From IMG/VR virus record IMGVR_UViG_3300023210_000240, positions 1-22,905 of that record: a stretch of DNA of 22,905 bases. One strand, written 5' to 3'. The stretch is from a virus. The stretch's first letter is position 1. Each line of letters opens with the position of its first letter. A program made the translations under genes and the position numbers. Below, in pieces: positions 341 to 22,790 of this stretch. Under the pieces are notes generated by a model. It searched no databases. It was given only the letters and a program-made list of their open reading frames with translations, and was not told the origin of the DNA.

Positions 341-347
341 AATAATT
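321..347 (-). repeat. Inverted repeat overlapping a stop codon
   Basis: A perfect 9-base inverted repeat (aattatttt at 321-329, aaaataatt at 339-347) with a 9-base loop overlaps the TAA of the preceding gene (348-346) and lies inside site A. No T-run follows it on the minus strand, so it is a poor intrinsic terminator. It could be an operator or an RNA 3' stabiliser. Confidence 0.3.
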
Positions 348-1053
348 AATTACTTCTTTCTGCTGATGTAGAAGTTCTTTGAGCTTGTACTATTGATTCA
401 ATATCACCTGCTAAAATATAAACTGCTTCATCTATTATTAATTCTACAATATCATCTTTAAATTCAGATTCTATATTTGTTGGACTAATATCTAATGTAT
501 AAGGATCTCTACAACCTTCAATTTGAATATTTACTGGTTTTCTATAATAGGTAAACCTAGCTTTTTCTAATTCAAAATCATTGTTTGTAAAAATTCTTAT
601 CTTATTATCTATTAATGTAGAAAAAGTTTCCCCCCATTCAAAACTAGGTTTTTTATTTACATCTCTTAATAACTGTGCTCTATTATCTTCTTCAGCAAGA
701 TACACAATCATTGATCTAGGTTCTTTACAACATTCATCACTGGCATATACATCAACTCTTTTATATTCTAAAAAGTTACCAGGTATTTCTAATAAAGATT
801 CATAAAATAAGTCTTTACCAATTATTTGCAAAGGTGTATCAATTAAAAGTTTTTGTAAATCATCTATTCTTCTAACTGATCCTTCATCTCCATCATTAAA
901 AGGATTACTACCACGTATTTGTCTACGCGCCCATTCAATTTGAGCTTTATTAAAAGATTCAACAATTTTCCAGCATGCTATATTATCATAGTCTAAACTG
1001 TCAAGTTTATTGATTCTTTCTTTAACTTTTAATTGTAATGTAGTATTATTCAT
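346..1053 (-). CDS. Head-tail connector (adaptor or ring) protein candidate
   Basis: This 235-residue soluble protein lies at the end of the head gene block, downstream of the capsid and minor genes. The C-terminal part has helical stretches such as VELIIDEAVYILAGDIES (about residues 204-221), similar in character to the helical ends of phage adaptor proteins that bind under the portal. The middle (about 90-190) looks beta-rich, with YYRKPVNIQIEG near 168-179. There is no signal peptide and no catalytic motif. Its ATG shares a base with the TAA of the 67-residue gene upstream (TAATG), so translation is probably coupled. The connector role rests on position and general character; another tail-ring or neck protein is equally possible. 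Confidence 0.5.
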   Translation of the reverse strand: MNNTTLQLKVKERINKLDSLDYDNIACWKIVESFNKAQIEWARRQIRGSNPFNDGDEGSVRRIDDLQKLLIDTPLQIIGKDLFYESLLEIPGNFLEYKRVDVYASDECCKEPRSMIVYLAEEDNRAQLLRDVNKKPSFEWGETFSTLIDNKIRIFTNNDFELEKARFTYYRKPVNIQIEGCRDPYTLDISPTNIESEFKDDIVELIIDEAVYILAGDIESIVQAQRTSTSAERSN

Positions 1054-1256
1054 TATCTTAACTTGTCAGGCATACCTTTTACAGTTCTACTTTTAGAAGG
1101 TTGTTGTGATAACAATCCTCTATTCTTAGATTCTGCTTCTCCTATACCTGAAACATCTTTTGAACTTTTAGGTCGTTGTGCCATAATTCTACCTTTTGCA
1201 TAGTTCATGCATTTTGCTATGTAACCACTTAAATCTTTTTTTCCTTTGTTTGCCAT
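1053..1256 (-). CDS. Small basic protein, unknown function
   Basis: A 67-residue lysine- and serine-rich protein starting MANKGKKDLSGYIAKCMNY. An upstream in-frame ATG at 1301 exists, but starting there would overlap the preceding small gene (stop at 1276). The start at 1256 leaves a clean 19-base spacer and is preferred. The N-terminal third could form an amphipathic helix; the rest (residues 30-67) is low-complexity and probably disordered. It couples by TAATG to the connector candidate. I do not recognise it. A role as a minor virion or assembly factor is suggested only by its place in the structural operon. Confidence 0.6.
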   Translation of the reverse strand: MANKGKKDLSGYIAKCMNYAKGRIMAQRPKSSKDVSGIGEAESKNRGLLSQQPSKSRTVKGMPDKLR

Positions 1257-1275
1257 AATTGTTATTTTTAAATTG

Positions 1276-1452
1276 TTAATATCCAAATCCAGCTGGTCCA
1301 TTTTGAAATCCTTTTTTAGAACCGCCTTTTTTCATTTTTTTCTTAGGAATTGTACCACCACTTTTAAAATTTAATGGGTAAGGTACATTACCTGCTCTTG
1401 CATTTGGACCAGTTGCCCATCCTGTAATTACTTGAGGTTCTACTTTATTCAT
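1276..1452 (-). CDS. Small Gly/Lys-rich protein
   Basis: A 58-residue ORF (ATG 1452-1450, TAA 1278-1276). It starts MNKVEPQVITGWATGPNAR, has a basic stretch KKKMKKGGSKKG at residues 37-48 and ends NGPAGFGY. Its ATG overlaps the TGA of the CDGSH gene as ATGA, and the next gene starts 19 bases after its stop, so it fills the spacer exactly. The residue pattern (ordered N-terminus, then Lys/Gly tail) suggests a nucleic-acid or virion-associated peptide, but no family is recognised. Being precisely nested between two other reading frames is the main evidence that it is a real gene. Confidence 0.6.
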   Translation of the reverse strand: MNKVEPQVITGWATGPNARAGNVPYPLNFKSGGTIPKKKMKKGGSKKGFQNGPAGFGY

Positions 1453-1547
1453 GCTTCAGATTTTTGTGCAGCATGTGAGCCATCACAAAACCCATCAGGA
1501 TCTTGTGATTGACCACATTTACATTGTTTTTTTTCTTCTTTATCCAT
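1449..1547 (-). CDS. Mini CDGSH iron-sulfur domain protein (32 aa)
   Basis: ATG at 1547-1545, TGA at 1451-1449. The peptide carries CKCGQSQDPDGFCDGSH: Cys9, Cys11, Cys21 and His25 match the 3Cys-1His ligands that hold a [2Fe-2S] cluster in CDGSH (mitoNEET-type) proteins, including the literal CDGSH string. The gap between the second and third Cys is 9 residues, one more than in mitoNEET, and the chain is close to the minimum for the fold. CDGSH proteins carry electrons or clusters, usually as dimers or tandem domains. The gene starts one base after the TAA of the 339-residue gene and overlaps the next gene as ATGA, so it is cotranscribed with structural genes. Function in the phage is unknown. 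Confidence 0.8.
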   Translation of the reverse strand: MDKEEKKQCKCGQSQDPDGFCDGSHAAQKSEA

Positions 1548-1548
1548 T

Positions 1549-2568
1549 TTATTTTGACCAAAGTGAAAATATAGGTTCACTAATAATTTCCATCATTTCT
1601 TCATTTAATGGACTTTTTAAATATTCTAAAACATCATTATTATTTCTACCTAAAAGTGTTCCAGATTTAATATGATAAATAAATCCATCTGATTTAGTAG
1701 CTAAATGTTTATAGAATACAGCATCTTTGATTATCGCTTTAATTTTTAAATCTTCAATTGAAAAGTTAGATGTTTCTAAAAATGTTTTAGCACATCTTTT
1801 CTTATCTTTTTCAAAATTTAAACCATTAATATAATCATCCATTACTTCATACATTACATCATTAGGAGTAGAATTAATATATTCAGGACTTCCTGGTACA
1901 ATTGCTTTAGTTACATATAGTAACTTTTTAGCATTTGTATCATATAAATTTTGTAATTCAGCTAATGCTTTATTACGTAATTTTTTATTTTCATTTTTAG
2001 TTGAAATTGTCTCTTCATATTTATCTAAATAAAATTTAGGAGGTGTTGGCATTGAATGAGCACTTTCTAAACTTTTAGCAATAATACTAAATCCTCCAGC
2101 TTCAATTGCAATCAATTTAATTAAATCATATGGATTATTTTCAGGATCTAAAAATGTTATATCATTTCCAGCTCTTAAAGTTATCTTTCCCCAAAACTCA
2201 TCGTTATTAGGTTTTAACAAAGTAACTTTATCCCAAAAGTCTTTATCATTAACATCAACAACATTAGAAGCTAAATCTTTTTCTAATTCACATACGTATT
2301 CACGTATTTGCCTTACTCTAGCTTCTTTTGCTTCATTGTTTTTAATTAACTTTACTTCTGGTGCAAATTCATTCAAACCAGTAACATATCTTTTGACACC
2401 ATTCTTCTCTAGACATGCTAATTGTTCTTCATGATATACTCCATCATATAAAGCCATTCCATAATTTTCTAATCCCATATTTTCCATTGCTGGATCAAAA
2501 TATGGTTTAATTGATACCTTCTTAGGAGTATTCAATGTTCTTACTTCTACTTTTGTAAATTCACTCAT
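1549..2568 (-). CDS. Conserved-looking structural-region protein, unknown function
   Basis: A 339-residue soluble, charged protein (starts MSEFTKVEVRTLNTPKKVSI) between the capsid-proximal genes and the CDGSH gene. Residues about 75-95 (NNEAKEARVRQIREYVCELE) form a likely helix. A Lys/Glu/Asn-rich helical stretch lies around 185-215, and the C-terminal half is mixed, ending EPIFSLWSK. There is no signal peptide, membrane segment or recognisable catalytic motif. The start is chosen because it is the first ATG after an A-run leader of the type used throughout the window (AAACCAAAAAAAAATG). Candidates are a head-completion or inner-virion protein. I do not recognise the family. Confidence 0.75.
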   Translation of the reverse strand: MSEFTKVEVRTLNTPKKVSIKPYFDPAMENMGLENYGMALYDGVYHEEQLACLEKNGVKRYVTGLNEFAPEVKLIKNNEAKEARVRQIREYVCELEKDLASNVVDVNDKDFWDKVTLLKPNNDEFWGKITLRAGNDITFLDPENNPYDLIKLIAIEAGGFSIIAKSLESAHSMPTPPKFYLDKYEETISTKNENKKLRNKALAELQNLYDTNAKKLLYVTKAIVPGSPEYINSTPNDVMYEVMDDYINGLNFEKDKKRCAKTFLETSNFSIEDLKIKAIIKDAVFYKHLATKSDGFIYHIKSGTLLGRNNNDVLEYLKSPLNEEMMEIISEPIFSLWSK

Positions 2569-3960: not shown

Positions 3961-5577
3961 TTAGAATGATCCTCCAGTAACTGGATTTCTCATTACAATT
4001 TTAAGAACCTTGGTTGGATCTTTTACCCAAATAGCTGGCATTGTCTGTGACATATACACACGATATCCATTAAATTGACCAGATGAAGCAAATCCTTGAG
4101 ATCTACCCATATAATCCATTGTTCCATTTTGATACCACCATTTAAGTTGATTATCCCAATCTAACTTTAATAAGAAAATGTTATCATTTCCTGTATCAGT
4201 AATATCAAAGATAACAAAGCTATAAGAGCTAAGTGGATGACCATCAATGATTGGATTTTCAACATTATTAGTATGTAAGTTATCAAATGCTGGGTTAAGT
4301 ACAAACTTAACATTAGCTAAGAATGGAATTACATATGAAGTATAAGCAAATCCAAAGTTAAGATCCATTCCTTTACCAGTAATAGCACCTACATCAGATG
4401 CATTGATAACAAGACCTGAACCAACTGCTTCACGCTTAATTGCTTCATTAACCATTTTCATACCACCAATACCTGTTTGAACAATAAGTTGTCTTTGTGG
4501 ATCTGGTCCATTAAGTTCAACACGTCCTTGGTAAAAGTTGTAAAGTTCTGATTTAAATAAATCAAGAGAAAATCCTGCTTTATTATAAACTTTTTTAAAT
4601 GAGTTGTCAAGTTGTTTCCAAAGACCAACAGATAATCTGATGTCATCTGGACCATCTTGTCTAACTCTACCACCATGACCCCACATTAAGTATGTCTCCA
4701 TATCAGAAGCAATTTTACTTAAATGAGCAGCTTCAAGATTAGTTAAGAATGTTCTACTTAAAGAACCATTTTCCATTGCTTTCTTAACATATGATTTACC
4801 CATTGTTTGAACCATTTCTTCAATTGAAGATACAGAAGGGTTATTTGCATTTTTATCAAAGTTTCTCCAGATCTCTGTTACAGGAACAGTTCCATCTGCG
4901 TTCATACCACCTTTGATCATCATATCAGCTCTTGAAGAAATTGAATAATGAACATGAGCTTCAGCACCACCTACATAGTTATAGAATTCTCTGAATCCTG
5001 AACCTGTAATGATATCTGAAAATCTTTCACCATATTCACCTCTAGCAGAACCTTTTCTAAAGTACTTAGTTCCTTCAGTTAAGAATCTTGCGTCAAAAAA
5101 CTTTTGTGAATCATTATTTACTAATTGAACAGTGTAAATAAAACCGTCACCTACAGGCATGATATCATCAGCTGTAATATAAAGTTCAGTTCCATTATAC
5201 TTGTCATAAGTAATGATGTCACCATGTCCAAATTCACGCTTATTAAGTTTAATCTTAAAAGTAGTACCATCTATTCCTAGATTTTCACCATCTTCTACAT
5301 TACAAACTACATAAGGTAAGTCTTGGGAGACTGGCGTTTGCCATTTATACTCTCCACGAGCATTATCTACATTAATTACATTTTTTCCACCGAATGAAGA
5401 CATTTGATAAAGAGGCATTTCCACTTTCTGTGCCATAGCCCAAATGTCTACTGGCCCAAGATCCATGGGTTCTGCATCCTTCAACATGTTCACAAGATGG
5501 TAAGAGTCTAAATGAGATGACGCATTATATTGCGTATCTCTTAGAAAAATTCCATTGTTTAATACTGGAGTTGCCAT
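3961..5577 (-). CDS. Major capsid protein
   Basis: A 538-residue protein directly after a scaffold-like gene and before a strong terminator, where phage capsid genes usually sit. It has no signal peptide or membrane segment. It shows alternating beta and helical stretches, a Gly/Asn-rich N-terminal region and a long central helical region (about residues 245-290, EEMVQTMGKSYVKKAMENG) as in HK97-fold shells. The final part (about 500-538, ending MRNPVTGGSF) is beta-rich. Its codons use C and G in third positions noticeably more than neighbouring genes, consistent with a very highly expressed product. An assignment by homology was not possible here; position, size, composition and terminator are the basis. 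Confidence 0.8.
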   Translation of the reverse strand: MATPVLNNGIFLRDTQYNASSHLDSYHLVNMLKDAEPMDLGPVDIWAMAQKVEMPLYQMSSFGGKNVINVDNARGEYKWQTPVSQDLPYVVCNVEDGENLGIDGTTFKIKLNKREFGHGDIITYDKYNGTELYITADDIMPVGDGFIYTVQLVNNDSQKFFDARFLTEGTKYFRKGSARGEYGERFSDIITGSGFREFYNYVGGAEAHVHYSISSRADMMIKGGMNADGTVPVTEIWRNFDKNANNPSVSSIEEMVQTMGKSYVKKAMENGSLSRTFLTNLEAAHLSKIASDMETYLMWGHGGRVRQDGPDDIRLSVGLWKQLDNSFKKVYNKAGFSLDLFKSELYNFYQGRVELNGPDPQRQLIVQTGIGGMKMVNEAIKREAVGSGLVINASDVGAITGKGMDLNFGFAYTSYVIPFLANVKFVLNPAFDNLHTNNVENPIIDGHPLSSYSFVIFDITDTGNDNIFLLKLDWDNQLKWWYQNGTMDYMGRSQGFASSGQFNGYRVYMSQTMPAIWVKDPTKVLKIVMRNPVTGGSF

Positions 5578-12792: not shown

Positions 12793-13597
12793 TATTTTTT
12801 AAATATTTAATTATTGTTAATACTTCTGTTTTTAAATAAGGTAATTCATATGGTACTATTTTTTTAACAATTGGATCACCATTTTCTTGGTATTTAGTTA
12901 TTGGATAACCATTTTCATCATCTCCTTCTTTTTCAAAAATTACATGTTGTATTATTAATTTACCTGGTTTTAATTTAGGATTATGTTTTATTATTATATA
13001 CATGTATAAACTTAATTGTAAATTATAATGCATTAAATTACAATCTTCAATATGTTTCAATGGTACATTTAATGTTTTATATATACCCTCCCAATTTTTC
13101 CATGAACGCTTTTTAATTTCTTTATTAGTTTTATAATCAATTATATTAACATGATTATTTACAACATCTACATAATCTGCTTGACCACATATTCCTGCTG
13201 ATTTTAAATAAACAAAATGTTCAGGATATATACCAGGAATTAATTTTTGTTCTGGAGCGTATTTTAAATCATCTATTATTTTAGGTGGTATAATAGGTAA
13301 CGCTGTACCATCAATTGTTAATGTATCTAAACCAAGTAAATCAGATTCTCTTTGATTATGATAAAATGTTCCTAAAGAAGTTGCTCTATTTGATTCATTT
13401 TCCCAAATCTTTTTTATTTCTTTAGGATCTTTTCCATACCATTTAGATTTTTTATTCTTAGCAGACTTTTCTGCTTGTTGTGGATTAAAGGGTTCTTTAA
13501 AACTAGATATAACAGAAGTTACACTAGTCCAATTTATTTTTTCATTAGGATCTATACTTTCGTAAAGATGTCCTTTTTCTTTAAATATTAAGCTCAT
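12785..13597 (-). CDS. PD-(D/E)XK nuclease (Cas4/RecB-type)
   Basis: A 270-residue protein with the pattern of the PDDEXK nuclease clan. A His in GTFYHNQRE (76-84) is in the usual upstream position, GQADYVDV (138-145) carries the first acid Asp141, and IIDYKT (152-157) is the acid-x-Lys core with Asp154 and Lys156. YNLQLSLYMYI (191-201) matches the trailing Q-x3-Y helix of RecB/Cas4-like enzymes. Such enzymes cut or resect DNA; in phages they serve recombination, genome processing or host DNA degradation. The four-cysteine iron-sulfur cluster of Cas4 is not seen. It overlaps the zinc-binding gene upstream as ATGA, so the two are probably made together. Confidence 0.85.
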   Translation of the reverse strand: MSLIFKEKGHLYESIDPNEKINWTSVTSVISSFKEPFNPQQAEKSAKNKKSKWYGKDPKEIKKIWENESNRATSLGTFYHNQRESDLLGLDTLTIDGTALPIIPPKIIDDLKYAPEQKLIPGIYPEHFVYLKSAGICGQADYVDVVNNHVNIIDYKTNKEIKKRSWKNWEGIYKTLNVPLKHIEDCNLMHYNLQLSLYMYIIIKHNPKLKPGKLIIQHVIFEKEGDDENGYPITKYQENGDPIVKKIVPYELPYLKTEVLTIIKYLKNNG

Positions 13598-13893
13598 AAT
13601 GATTCATTTAATTTATCTTCTTCCTCTTCACTTAAAACTGCATTCCATCTTTTATCATCACATTCAGATGATAATGCTCTTGTTTTTAATGAAAGATCGC
13701 AACCACACAATGAACAGCATGGTTGTGTTCCTTTCACATAACATTGATTTCCTTTCAAATCAATATGAGGACATTTTTTACATATATTTAATCTTTCGTT
13801 GGCAATTAATTCAACATCTTCTTTTTTAAAGATTTTATTCTTTATTCCTTCTAGAATTTGATTTTTTGCTTTCCAAATTTTTATTATTGACAT
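13594..13893 (-). CDS. Small cysteine-rich zinc-binding protein
   Basis: This 99-residue protein has eight cysteines in a compact pattern: Cys38, 41 (CKKC), 51, 59, 60, 63, 65 (PCCSLCGC) and 78. This is enough for one or two structural zinc sites or, less likely, an iron-sulfur cluster. The N-terminus is a basic helix and the C-terminus is acidic. It overlaps the IHF-like gene upstream by 59 bases and the nuclease gene downstream by 4 (ATGA), placing it between two DNA-acting proteins. It may be a nuclease partner or a transcription-related factor. I recognise no named family with confidence. Confidence 0.75.
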   Translation of the reverse strand: MSIIKIWKAKNQILEGIKNKIFKKEDVELIANERLNICKKCPHIDLKGNQCYVKGTQPCCSLCGCDLSLKTRALSSECDDKRWNAVLSEEEEDKLNESL

Positions 13894-15626: not shown

Positions 15627-16010
15627 TTATAAATGTATATTTTTACTTTTATACATTAATCTTGCAAATTCATAATTAAGAAACAATTCTTCATTTGCTT
15701 TAACATCTTTTTTGGTATAAAAATCTAATGTTCTCTTTTCTTTATTAAATTTTATTGTAACATTATTATCTTTTCTAGAATTATATATTGCTCCATAACC
15801 ATATGGAATAATGATTTCATTTTTTATTGCAAAACTGTTACAACCAATTCCTGGAATAGTTCTAACTTTTTTAAACTCATCTTTAGAAAGAAATAAACCA
15901 TGACATTCCTCCAATAAAGTATCTTTTGGAATGTCATTTATAGCAAATACACCCCATCCATGGAGTATACTTTTTCTAACTTCAATGTTTGGATTTTTTT
16001 CTAATATCAT
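15627..16010 (-). CDS. Stand-alone SET-domain protein lysine methyltransferase
   Basis: A 127-residue protein that is little more than a SET domain, close in size to the chlorovirus enzyme vSET. GWGVFA (18-23) is the N-terminal SAM-binding turn. IYNSRKDNN (75-83) corresponds to the NHS-x(n)-N motif that threads the knot, here NS with a short loop. EELFLNYEF (107-115) is the C-terminal motif with the catalytic Tyr113. A methyl group from SAM would be put on a lysine of a protein. No pre-SET or post-SET zinc cysteines are present. It starts inside the stop of the tail-fibre gene (ATGA). The target is unknown; nearby lysine-rich proteins such as the IHF-like one are candidates. Confidence 0.88.
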   Translation of the reverse strand: MILEKNPNIEVRKSILHGWGVFAINDIPKDTLLEECHGLFLSKDEFKKVRTIPGIGCNSFAIKNEIIIPYGYGAIYNSRKDNNVTIKFNKEKRTLDFYTKKDVKANEELFLNYEFARLMYKSKNIHL

Positions 16011-19280: not shown

Positions 19281-19502
19281 TTATTTATCTTTATAATAGT
19301 CAGATTCTAAATAATATTCTTGACTTCCTGTTATTTCAGTTAGTTTAGAAATCATTTCTTCTTCTGTTAAAAAACTATATAAAGTTGGTTGACCAGTATT
19401 AAGTAGTTGATCGTTTCCTAATTTACCAAATCCTGATACATCACTATTTGTATCAATAACAATCCAATATCTATTTAAATCTGTTTTTTCTATTGTTTCC
19501 AT
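19281..19502 (-). CDS. Small acidic protein, unknown function
   Basis: A 73-residue acidic protein, METIEKTDLNRYWIVIDTNS at the start and a Tyr/Asp/Glu-rich end (SQEYYLESDYYKDK). A short beta-alpha arrangement is plausible (WIVIDTN ... TLYSFLTEEEMISKLTEIT). Its ATG overlaps the adhesin stop as TAATG, so it is probably a cotranslated chaperone or accessory of the adhesin, as small proteins after tail fibre genes often are. That role is inference from position. Confidence 0.6.
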   Translation of the reverse strand: METIEKTDLNRYWIVIDTNSDVSGFGKLGNDQLLNTGQPTLYSFLTEEEMISKLTEITGSQEYYLESDYYKDK

Positions 19503-20959
19503 TATATACCTCCTCCATCAGTTATGGTCCAACCATAAATATTAATTAAACTTGTTCTTGCTGTCTCAGCTGGACCTCCTAAAGTATATTGTGATGAACC
19601 AAAATCAATATTAGGAATTGGAGTATAACCTACTCCTCCTGGATATGAAGATTGCAATGTTGCTTCCCATCCAACTAAAATTGCATCATAATCTGATGTT
19701 AATAATGTTAGACCAGTCATAAAAAGACTAAAACCGTTAGGTTGCAAAGGATCAGTACCTACAGATGATATATCCCAACTAGATAAATCACTTGAAAAAC
19801 CTGTAGTCTGTCTAAACAGGCCTGACATAGACTCAACATTTGAAACATCCCATGAAGATAAAGTAGATCCAGATGCAGCAAAGCTTGATGCATCATAAAA
19901 TGTATTAATCATTAGGATACCTGAACTAGTATCCCAAGAGTCAAGATTTTGACTAAAAGATGTTGCTAATCTAAAAAGTGTGCTAAAACTTGTAACATTA
20001 CTAACATCCCAACCACTTATGTCTTGGTTAAATAATGGGCAAAATGAAAACATTCCACCTATATCTGTTGCACTACTCATATCCCAAGAACTAATGTCTT
20101 GATTAAAACTTGTAGCTCTAAACATTTGATCAAATTCTTCAATTCCTGATACATCCCATGATGCAAAACTTGGATTTGCTACAAAAGGTCCACCAAAAGC
20201 AGTATTTCTTTTAAACATTACAGTAAAACCAGCTCTTAAATTTAAATCTGCTACAGAAAAAACAGGTATATCAGTTGCAGTACAATTCATAAAATGAGCT
20301 GAATCAAAAGCACCAGCCAAATCTTTCCAAGGTTGTGTACCCCATTGTTTAATTTCTATTAGTTCATCTTGTGAACCCATAGAAATCTTTGGAAATAAAC
20401 CAGAAATTTTAACTTCATATGTACCTGCTACTGCATATGGATGAGTAATTGTGCTACCTGTATTTCCAATTACATTTTCTATTGCAGAACCATCACCCCA
20501 ATCTACATATGCATTTATAGGTAATATATTAAATCCTGCAGGACTTCTCATTATATTTATATCATCTCCAGGAGCAGCTGTTGTCCATTCTGTTATTAAT
20601 GGGACATAACTAGTAGTTTGAACAACTTGATTTGAATATGATTGTCCATACAAATTTGTTGCATATGCTCTAAAATAATATGTAGTATCATTTAATAAAC
20701 CATCTATATCAAGTATATCAACAGTAAAAGGACCTACACCACCACTACCTGAACTTTTAAAATTATCAGCAATTGTTGGATTAAAACTTGTGCTCCAACA
20801 TATACCAGTATCTGTTACAACTCCTCCTCCTTCATCTGTAACTTCACAACTAGTATCAAAATTTGTTAATTCTATATTTGTTAAAGTCATAGTAAGTGAA
20901 CCAAGAGTAGCAATTGTTTCACCTTGACCAAAAAAACTAAAAGGAATTTGTTGTGCCAT
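19502..20959 (-). CDS. Adhesin/tail fibre: FN3-like, PKD and BspA-like repeats
   Basis: A 485-residue protein of three modules. Residues 20-117 form a Bacteroidota FN3-like domain (TDTGICWSTSFNPT, then YYFRAYATNLYGQSYSNQVV). Residues 120-190 are PKD-like, with YVDWGDGS (151-158) and HPYAVAGTYEVKISG (173-187). About 205-415 are BspA/DUF285-type repeats with phrases such as FNQDISSWDMSSATDIGGMF (285-304) and FNQDISGWDVSNVTSFSTLF (310-329), period about 25. These repeats bind surfaces and are common in Bacteroidota cell-surface proteins. There is no signal peptide, so the protein is probably a virion part such as a receptor-binding fibre. The TAA is coupled by TAATG to the next gene. Confidence 0.85.
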   Translation of the reverse strand: MAQQIPFSFFGQGETIATLGSLTMTLTNIELTNFDTSCEVTDEGGGVVTDTGICWSTSFNPTIADNFKSSGSGGVGPFTVDILDIDGLLNDTTYYFRAYATNLYGQSYSNQVVQTTSYVPLITEWTTAAPGDDINIMRSPAGFNILPINAYVDWGDGSAIENVIGNTGSTITHPYAVAGTYEVKISGLFPKISMGSQDELIEIKQWGTQPWKDLAGAFDSAHFMNCTATDIPVFSVADLNLRAGFTVMFKRNTAFGGPFVANPSFASWDVSGIEEFDQMFRATSFNQDISSWDMSSATDIGGMFSFCPLFNQDISGWDVSNVTSFSTLFRLATSFSQNLDSWDTSSGILMINTFYDASSFAASGSTLSSWDVSNVESMSGLFRQTTGFSSDLSSWDISSVGTDPLQPNGFSLFMTGLTLLTSDYDAILVGWEATLQSSYPGGVGYTPIPNIDFGSSQYTLGGPAETARTSLINIYGWTITDGGGI

Positions 20960-21576: not shown

Positions 21577-21603
21577 AAAAAAATTTATTCTTTTATAAAT
21601 TTT
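21576..21603 (-). terminator. Intrinsic terminator overlapping the T9SS gene stop
   Basis: On the minus strand AAAATTTAT-AAAAGA-ATAAATTTT (21603-21580) is a perfect 9-base inverted repeat with a 6-base loop, followed by four further T (21579-21576) that with the stem give eight in a row. The TAA of the 401-residue gene (21587-21585) lies in its 3' arm. The stem is all A/T, so it is weaker than the capsid terminator. Confidence 0.5.
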
Positions 21604-22790
21604 CCTATAGCATTTACATTATCGCTTTTAGATTTTAATATATATGCTCCTTTGTTAAATTTTTCTATATTTATTTGAAAATCATGAATTTCTCCAATAA
21701 AATGTTTTTTATAAACTCTATTTCCGCTCATATCAAATATCTGTATATTATGATTTATTAGAGGATCTAATGTATAATCCATTTCTAATTCAATATAATC
21801 TATAGCTGGATTAGGTTTTATATTTAAACCAATTGTTTTTTCATTTTCAACATTAACAGATACAGGATAAAAAGTTTTTGAGTTACCATCATAATCTACT
21901 TGTCTTAAACGATAATAAGATAATCCTATATGTGGATATAGATCTTTTAATTCATACAATTTAGGTGTGTTACAATTCCCATGTCCAGGCAATCTATCAA
22001 CTTCTTTCCACTCATAACAATCTATACTATTTTCAACAACATAATAATCATTATTAACTTGTGATTCTACAATCCAATCAATATCTACGCTTGTTCCGTC
22101 TGCTTCTGCTGTGAAAGAAAGTAAATCTATTGGTAGAGAAGTGCCTGAACCTGATCCCAACAAAAAAAAATCATCAAACCAAAATTCTTCTCCTGCTCTA
22201 TCCACTACGGCTAAAACATCAATTGCAATCTGTCTGGTTCCTAACGGAAAAATCAATTCTATAATAGAATACCCATCTCCAGCCAAGGTTCTATCTCCTC
22301 CTCCTGCTGGTGTATATATATCTACATTACCATTGACAACTTTACTAACAGTCTTAGAATTAAAATCCCAATAAGCATTATTATTTCCAGTTATTCTAAC
22401 TTCTGAAAGATAAGTTAATCCACCATCAGTAGAAACTTGCACATCTATATAGTCACTTGCATCAATTCCTGAGTTAGGTCCTGTTGATGTAAATCTATAA
22501 GAACCAACATTAAGTTGAACCTTATACTCTTGTGTTGGATCTAATGTGTCTATATTAGGTAAACTATACCAATCATATTCATCATTTGCATTTCCTGTAC
22601 CATATATAACTGCAGATGCTGGTGCAGATTTAGATGCATTACTAAAAAATCCTGTTGTAGCAGCTCCTACCCACCAATTTCCTGACCATGTATATCCTTC
22701 CATTTGATCATATGCAACTGTATCTGGAAATGTTTGACCATTAACAATACGCATAATACTTAACAATAATATCAGTAATTTAATTTTCAT
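21585..22790 (-). CDS. Type IX secretion-targeted protein with C-terminal sorting domain
   Basis: A 401-residue protein. Residues 1-18 (MKIKLLILLLSIMRIVNG, then QTF) form a Sec signal peptide with no lipobox Cys. About 19-212 is a beta-sandwich-like domain (ASDYIDVQVSTDGGLTY, ending EEFWFDDFFLLGSG), comparable in style to MAM or jelly-roll domains. LPIDLLSFTAEADGTSVDIDW (starting near 219) opens an FN3-like module common just before sorting domains. Residues about 325-401 are a type A T9SS sorting domain: IKPNPAIDYIEL, IQIFDMSGNRVYKK, FNKGAYILK. T9SS is confined to Bacteroidota, so the product should cross the host outer membrane during infection. Some stretches use more G/C-rich codons than neighbours, hinting at host origin. 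Confidence 0.85.
   Translation of the reverse strand: MKIKLLILLLSIMRIVNGQTFPDTVAYDQMEGYTWSGNWWVGAATTGFFSNASKSAPASAVIYGTGNANDEYDWYSLPNIDTLDPTQEYKVQLNVGSYRFTSTGPNSGIDASDYIDVQVSTDGGLTYLSEVRITGNNNAYWDFNSKTVSKVVNGNVDIYTPAGGGDRTLAGDGYSIIELIFPLGTRQIAIDVLAVVDRAGEEFWFDDFFLLGSGSGTSLPIDLLSFTAEADGTSVDIDWIVESQVNNDYYVVENSIDCYEWKEVDRLPGHGNCNTPKLYELKDLYPHIGLSYYRLRQVDYDGNSKTFYPVSVNVENEKTIGLNIKPNPAIDYIELEMDYTLDPLINHNIQIFDMSGNRVYKKHFIGEIHDFQINIEKFNKGAYILKSKSDNVNAIGKFIKE

Follow-up and report, generated by a model that had tools for sequence, protein, structure and literature searches.

Judged by its sequence, a 32-residue peptide encoded by a crAss-like phage consists of little more than an iron-sulfur-type CDGSH loop and belongs to a widespread, strongly conserved and so far unlisted class of tiny CDGSH-type proteins. 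Pattern searches show that members of this class recur across numerous phages as well as marine Bacteroidota, also as an add-on at the ends of larger proteins. The finding has widened from a single curiosity to a class, for which we infer a mechanism below.

The window (the whole stretch of DNA analysed, 22,905 nucleotides) is a virus contig of 22.9 kb with a crAss-type capsid, a portal and a terminase (phrog_6547 and phrog_6681 among the matches). The major capsid protein (3961..5577, minus strand) matches the crAss-like Pfam model PF23898 (E=4.3e-32). Distant matches include Cellulophaga, Flavobacterium and gut crAss-like phages. With its crAss-type capsid, portal and terminase the phage is a member of the crAss-like group. 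A 401-aa gene (21585-22790, minus strand) carries the type IX secretion system (T9SS) sorting domain Por_Secre_tail (PF18962, E=1.8e-9), a further sign that the host is one of the Bacteroidota. This protein has a hydrophobic N-terminus and is apparently addressed to the T9SS of the host.

The micro-gene and its slot

The micro-CDGSH ORF (32 aa, MDKEEKKQCKCGQSQDPDGFCDGSHAAQKSEA) occupies positions 1449..1547 on the minus strand, with its ATG at 1547-1545 and its TGA at 1451-1449. The first-pass annotation had reported an ORF here and left the strand unstated; the plus strand is interrupted by a stop. Inside the ORF lies a 17-residue motif (CKCGQSQDPDGFCDGSH, 1473..1523, minus strand), whose putative ligands are encoded at 1523-1521 (C9), 1517-1515 (C11), 1487-1485 (C21) and 1475-1473 (H25), also on the minus strand. 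Cys9, Cys11, Cys21, His25 and the literal CDGSH are all in the translation, as had been claimed. Between Cys11 and Cys21 there are nine residues (x9) versus eight in canonical motifs (x8), so the spacing is indeed one residue longer than canonical.

The gene is tightly joined to its neighbours. Its start at 1547 and the end of a 339-aa gene at 1549 leave a gap of a single base (TAAAATG), and its TGA shares an ATGA overlap with the ATG (1452-1450) of a 58-aa ORF. The coordinates confirm both joints, which had been noticed before. The x9 motif arises in 0 of 100 dinucleotide shuffles. The in-frame codon score is 0.66 bits per codon, close to the 0.61 +/- 0.21 that the phage's real genes give, and 0 of about 4000 out-of-frame chunks score as high as the micro-ORF. 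GC3 is 0.09 versus 0.106 in the real genes. The codon score, the shuffle test and the operon joints therefore identify the micro-ORF as a coding sequence, a real micro-gene. The first-pass annotation had called a chance origin very unlikely, and the shuffles and the codon score agree with it. It had also described a structural operon. Late and structural genes (the Crass_capsid MCP, portal and TerL) do surround the micro-ORF.

More locally, the micro-ORF lies in a hypervariable accessory slot of 495 bp (1054..1548, minus strand) between the 339-aa gene and a structural gene. The 339-aa gene (1549..2568, minus strand) is directly upstream of the micro-ORF. It is conserved, with 69 relatives in viral contigs, and it has no confident Pfam or PHROG match and zero matches in 50,697 phage records. 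Downstream of the micro-ORF follow the Lys/Gly-rich 58-aa ORF (1276..1452, minus strand), similar to basic ORFs that fill the slot in relatives, and a small basic 82-aa ORF (1053..1301, minus strand) as the last occupant. The gene for a 235-aa virion structural protein (346..1053, minus strand; phrog_29507, E=1.7e-13) closes the slot.

We compared this site across the 69 relatives of the 339-aa gene (best identity 63%; closer kin may exist). A CDGSH-like motif in any frame is found at 0 of these 69 crAss-like loci. The micro-gene is therefore accessory at this site and dispensable in the lineage: it fills a variable slot optionally. The check proposed with the first-pass annotation, that the ORF be conserved where its neighbours are, fails here by absence rather than decay, because the site is a hypervariable slot for small genes. 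In the 59 relatives in which the 235-aa structural gene was also located, slot size ranges from -4 to 4301 bp, and the slot is either empty or contains tiny Lys/Gly-rich ORFs. Several slot ORFs in L003-L070 have Cys tails (CGCKK, GCGCKK, CACGC, KCACGC) or a KCMSCGG start.

Extent and conservation of the x9 class

The class has the pattern C-x-C-G-x-[ST]-x-[DN]-P-x-G-x-C-D-G-[ST]-H. It exceeds the canonical motif by one residue and has Gly where that motif has an invariant Pro. The window ORF is free-standing and operonic and reads C-x-C-G-x-[ST]-x4-G-x-C-D-G-[ST]-H. Searching with a degenerate DNA pattern for C-x-C-G-x3-D-P-x-G-x-C-D-G-x-H, we found this DPxG form in 92 viral and 84 bacterial contigs. 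A looser general x9 pattern occurs at no fewer than 120 viral loci (at least 120), and a mis-framed control pattern of similar size gives 0 matches. Of 199 genomes from the family of Polaribacter irgensii (G001, L192), 13 are positive for the true pattern and 0 for the reversed control patterns.

Free-standing copies of 22-45 aa are present in more than 100 viral contigs. The shortest common free-standing ORFs have 22-23 aa, for example MIKPCQCGQTSDPSGNCDGTHIK. The rule that CDGSH proteins normally have 70 residues or more fails for the x9 class, in which such short copies are common. Carriers at L073, L118, L127 and L146 have crAss-like genes similar to those of the window.

In tblastn searches of the 50,697 phage records the window peptide has one weak match (Nican01, E=3) and the class consensus none. 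INPHARED yielded no flavophage with a micro-CDGSH. Models in PHROGs, NCBIfam and PADLOC say nothing informative about the window peptide, and open-licence papers gave us nothing relevant on phage CDGSH proteins, small CDGSH proteins or a link to YceI. Many class copies are shorter than usual gene-calling lengths. Two published surveys would be expected to miss x9 micro-CDGSH copies: one used the canonical motif as its query (PMC3174974), and the other filtered its sequences with a Pfam model of the whole domain (PMC5859297).

Variation within the class shows the signature of strong purifying selection. Among loci found by the second half of the motif, 97 of 97 have both upstream Cys correctly placed. 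A second, independent set was collected through a membrane-type gene frequently located just before the micro-ORF. Of its 79 loci that span the slot, 51 carry the complete motif, 2 a CDSSH variant that retains the four ligands, and 26 are clean absences, with 0 decayed copies. The Cys and His codons of this set vary only synonymously, and its motif pN/pS is 0.20. The sequences behind this ratio were extracted by a pattern that demands the four ligands, and the no-decay result comes from the 79-locus count. For codons that the pattern does not fix, pN/pS is 0.44 in the viral and 0.32 in the bacterial pattern-found sets. Class relatives keep the gene in frame and under selection, in line with the first-pass annotation.

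Viral copies have same-strand neighbours upstream in 118 of 125 cases and downstream in 121 of 127. With start codons picked by rule, most upstream gaps are within 10 bases and many are 4-base overlaps. The recurrent neighbours are holin (phrog_3427), M15 peptidases and small membrane proteins, that is, lysis-type cassettes. The structural-gene position of the window copy is therefore one of several. By eye, L083 and L304 have a micro-CDGSH ORF 4 bases upstream of a GroEL-like phage gene, and in L083 a GroES-like ORF lies beyond it.

The x9 module also occurs at one end of larger phage proteins. It forms an N-terminal loop in a 108-aa protein (L071:2301-2624, with relatives in L073, L118 and L127), whose C-terminal part is conserved and unannotated and whose loci carry crAss-like genes. 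It forms a C-terminal loop in XkdF-type phage proteases (L267:1854-3677, L278, L286 and L336; Pfam was run on L267). A canonical x8 loop stands at the N-terminus of viral proteins of about 280 aa (L361, L356, L399, L411 and L451), and L361, the member tested, is a 2OG-Fe(II) oxygenase.

Bacterial copies have a context of their own. YceI is a lipid/isoprenoid-binding family. In marine Flavobacteriia, copies of 26-31 aa directly follow YceI: where the upstream neighbour is on the same strand, it is YceI in 44 of 48 cases, at a distance of at most 5 bases in 26 of the 44. FMN_red is found downstream of bacterial copies at 16 loci; 12 loci have an HxlR-type regulator nearby. In some proteins the copy is joined to the YceI N-terminus and precedes a hydrophobic segment, an arrangement that suggests a cytoplasmic CDGSH loop in these fusions. 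Opitutae (for example L228 and L195) have two x9 motifs in one chain of 54-60 aa, for which the AlphaFold2 model (pLDDT 57.9) is uninformative.

Comparison with known CDGSH proteins

The closest known proteins are CISD types 1-7 (PF09360; mitoNEET, 3TBM of type 3, 3TBN of type 6). The window peptide shares with them the order C-x-C ... C-D-G-[STA]-H with three Cys and one His, and with their bacterial members the Gly after the second Cys and the [ST] two residues on. The canonical motif is C-x-C-x2-[ST]-x3-P-x-C-D-G with an invariant Pro at motif position 11 (PMC3174974). Known structures also have a lid-proline strand (P motif GP-Phi-x-Phi) and a beta-sandwich for dimerisation (Lin et al. 2011, PMC3174974). 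In contrast, the window peptide has the longer spacing of nine versus eight residues between its second and third Cys. Gly19, two residues before the third Cys, replaces the invariant Pro. There is no GP motif with its lid-proline and no beta-sandwich, and free-standing copies of the class have only 22-45 residues.

Pfam zf-CDGSH scores the window peptide at 17.2 bits (E=0.0064), below the gathering cut-off of 29.5 bits, and matches 6 of 21 x9 class members at E<=1 (best 5.8e-4). The best PDB matches of the x9 class profile are 3TBM and 3TBN, both [2Fe-2S] CDGSH proteins (E 0.007-0.009), and profile-profile comparison with canonical CDGSH gives a probability of 94.9%. The AlphaFold2 model of the window peptide has a pLDDT of 75.6 and a pTM of 0.32; for this very short chain of 32 aa, Foldseek and VIA-align find no structural match in the PDB.

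Because the spacing, both Pro, the beta-sandwich and the Pfam score all fail, we rejected filing the peptide in CISD types 1-7 and take it to be a new variant outside them. The earlier idea of a minimal CDGSH protein stands as far as a real CDGSH-type micro-gene is concerned. It does not stand for a protein of the mitoNEET type, from which spacing, lid-proline and beta-sandwich differ.

Nearer relatives lie within the x9 class and among other free-standing loops. The YceI-linked copies of marine Flavobacteriia (L192, L183) have the same x9 motif, a length of 26-31 aa and an operonic place with gaps of a few bases. They are chromosomal and tied to YceI and FMN reductase, whereas the phage copy lies among structural genes. 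The Opitutae proteins carry the same motif twice and resemble a minimal type 6 tandem CDGSH; unlike them, the window protein has one motif per chain. Viral x8 micro-CDGSH ORFs (L360, 24 aa; L352, 32 aa) are free-standing loops of similar size, but they have canonical spacing and a Pro before the third Cys.

Proposed function and its alternatives

Our best explanation is a tentative one, to which we give slightly less than even weight. The micro-gene is an optional late gene, which a Bacteroidota-infecting crAss-like phage carries in its slot for small genes, and it encodes a free-standing x9 CDGSH loop. This loop would hold a [2Fe-2S] cluster and serve a redox or iron role. By analogy with canonical CDGSH domains, three Cys and one His would hold the cluster; we think it most likely that the loop alone holds [2Fe-2S] rather than Zn. 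Since so short a peptide leaves no room for the supporting beta-sandwich, it would act either as a homodimer or while docked to a partner. Cluster geometry could differ, since the Pro and the lid-Pro are absent and one residue is inserted. The role may be that of a cytoplasmic module for redox or for iron/cluster handling in the late-infected cell. The best physiological clue is the host operon of YceI and an NADPH-dependent FMN reductase, sometimes with a YceI fusion. None of the phage copies lies beside YceI, and the host context may not carry over.

A rather unlikely alternative, and still the strongest, is a knuckle for Zn or another metal: three Cys and one His would then form a docking tag, for example for virion or lysis proteins, without a redox role. 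The 3Cys-1His set is also common for Zn. The Pro and lid-Pro that stand beside the cluster in known structures are absent here, and the fusion of the module to unrelated phage proteins (the C-terminus of XkdF-type proteases, the N-terminus of the 108-aa crAss-like protein) is what a docking tag would look like. However, strong selection preserves the D-G-[ST]-H end, which is a typical feature of [2Fe-2S] CDGSH domains. The PDB profile matches are [2Fe-2S] proteins and not Zn fingers, and the host operon with its FMN reductase is redox-like.

It is improbable that the peptide is a virion-associated protein, packaged or attached near the capsid or ring proteins of the flanking genes. The place of the gene between structural genes fits this, as does the fusion of related modules to head-maturation-type proteases. 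Yet sister micro-ORFs mostly lie in lysis-type cassettes (holin, M15 peptidase) or at other places, so their location is not tied to virion genes.

Far less probable still, the motif could be a frameshifted C-terminal tail of the 339-aa protein instead of a separate protein. The micro frame stays open for 15 codons back into the 339-aa gene, and other phages have the module as a C-terminal fusion. But the micro-ORF has its own ATG one base past the stop, an arrangement (TAAAATG) typical of coupled re-initiation, and most class members are free-standing with their own ATG. A chance ORF without a product would agree with the fact that none of the 69 related loci has the gene at this site, but the shuffle test, codon usage and class-wide conservation contradict it and leave it a negligible probability.

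The [2Fe-2S] reading can be extended from the window to the class, with more doubt than for the window gene itself. The class would then be a hidden, widespread group of one-loop iron-sulfur microproteins of 22-45 residues in phages and marine Bacteroidota. Phages would use them as redox or iron modules that are optional and act late, and also as domains that snap onto virion proteins and enzymes. If this is true, they are among the smallest natural [2Fe-2S] proteins. If the clusters are held, then a CDGSH loop is functional without the beta-sandwich that is thought to define the domain. The recurrence in many phages raises the question of why redox or iron modules would be present late in infection, and the hosts offer a testable partner in YceI and the FMN reductase.

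The same phage encodes a 127-aa SET-domain protein (15627-16010, minus strand, E=7.9e-11). It also encodes a 485-aa DUF285-repeat protein (19502-20959, minus strand, E=1.1e-44), and genes resembling the latter are found in loci that also have the 108-aa CDGSH protein. A Cys-rich 99-aa protein of the window (13594-13893, minus strand) has relatives in the CDGSH-module loci L101, L127, L128 and L253.
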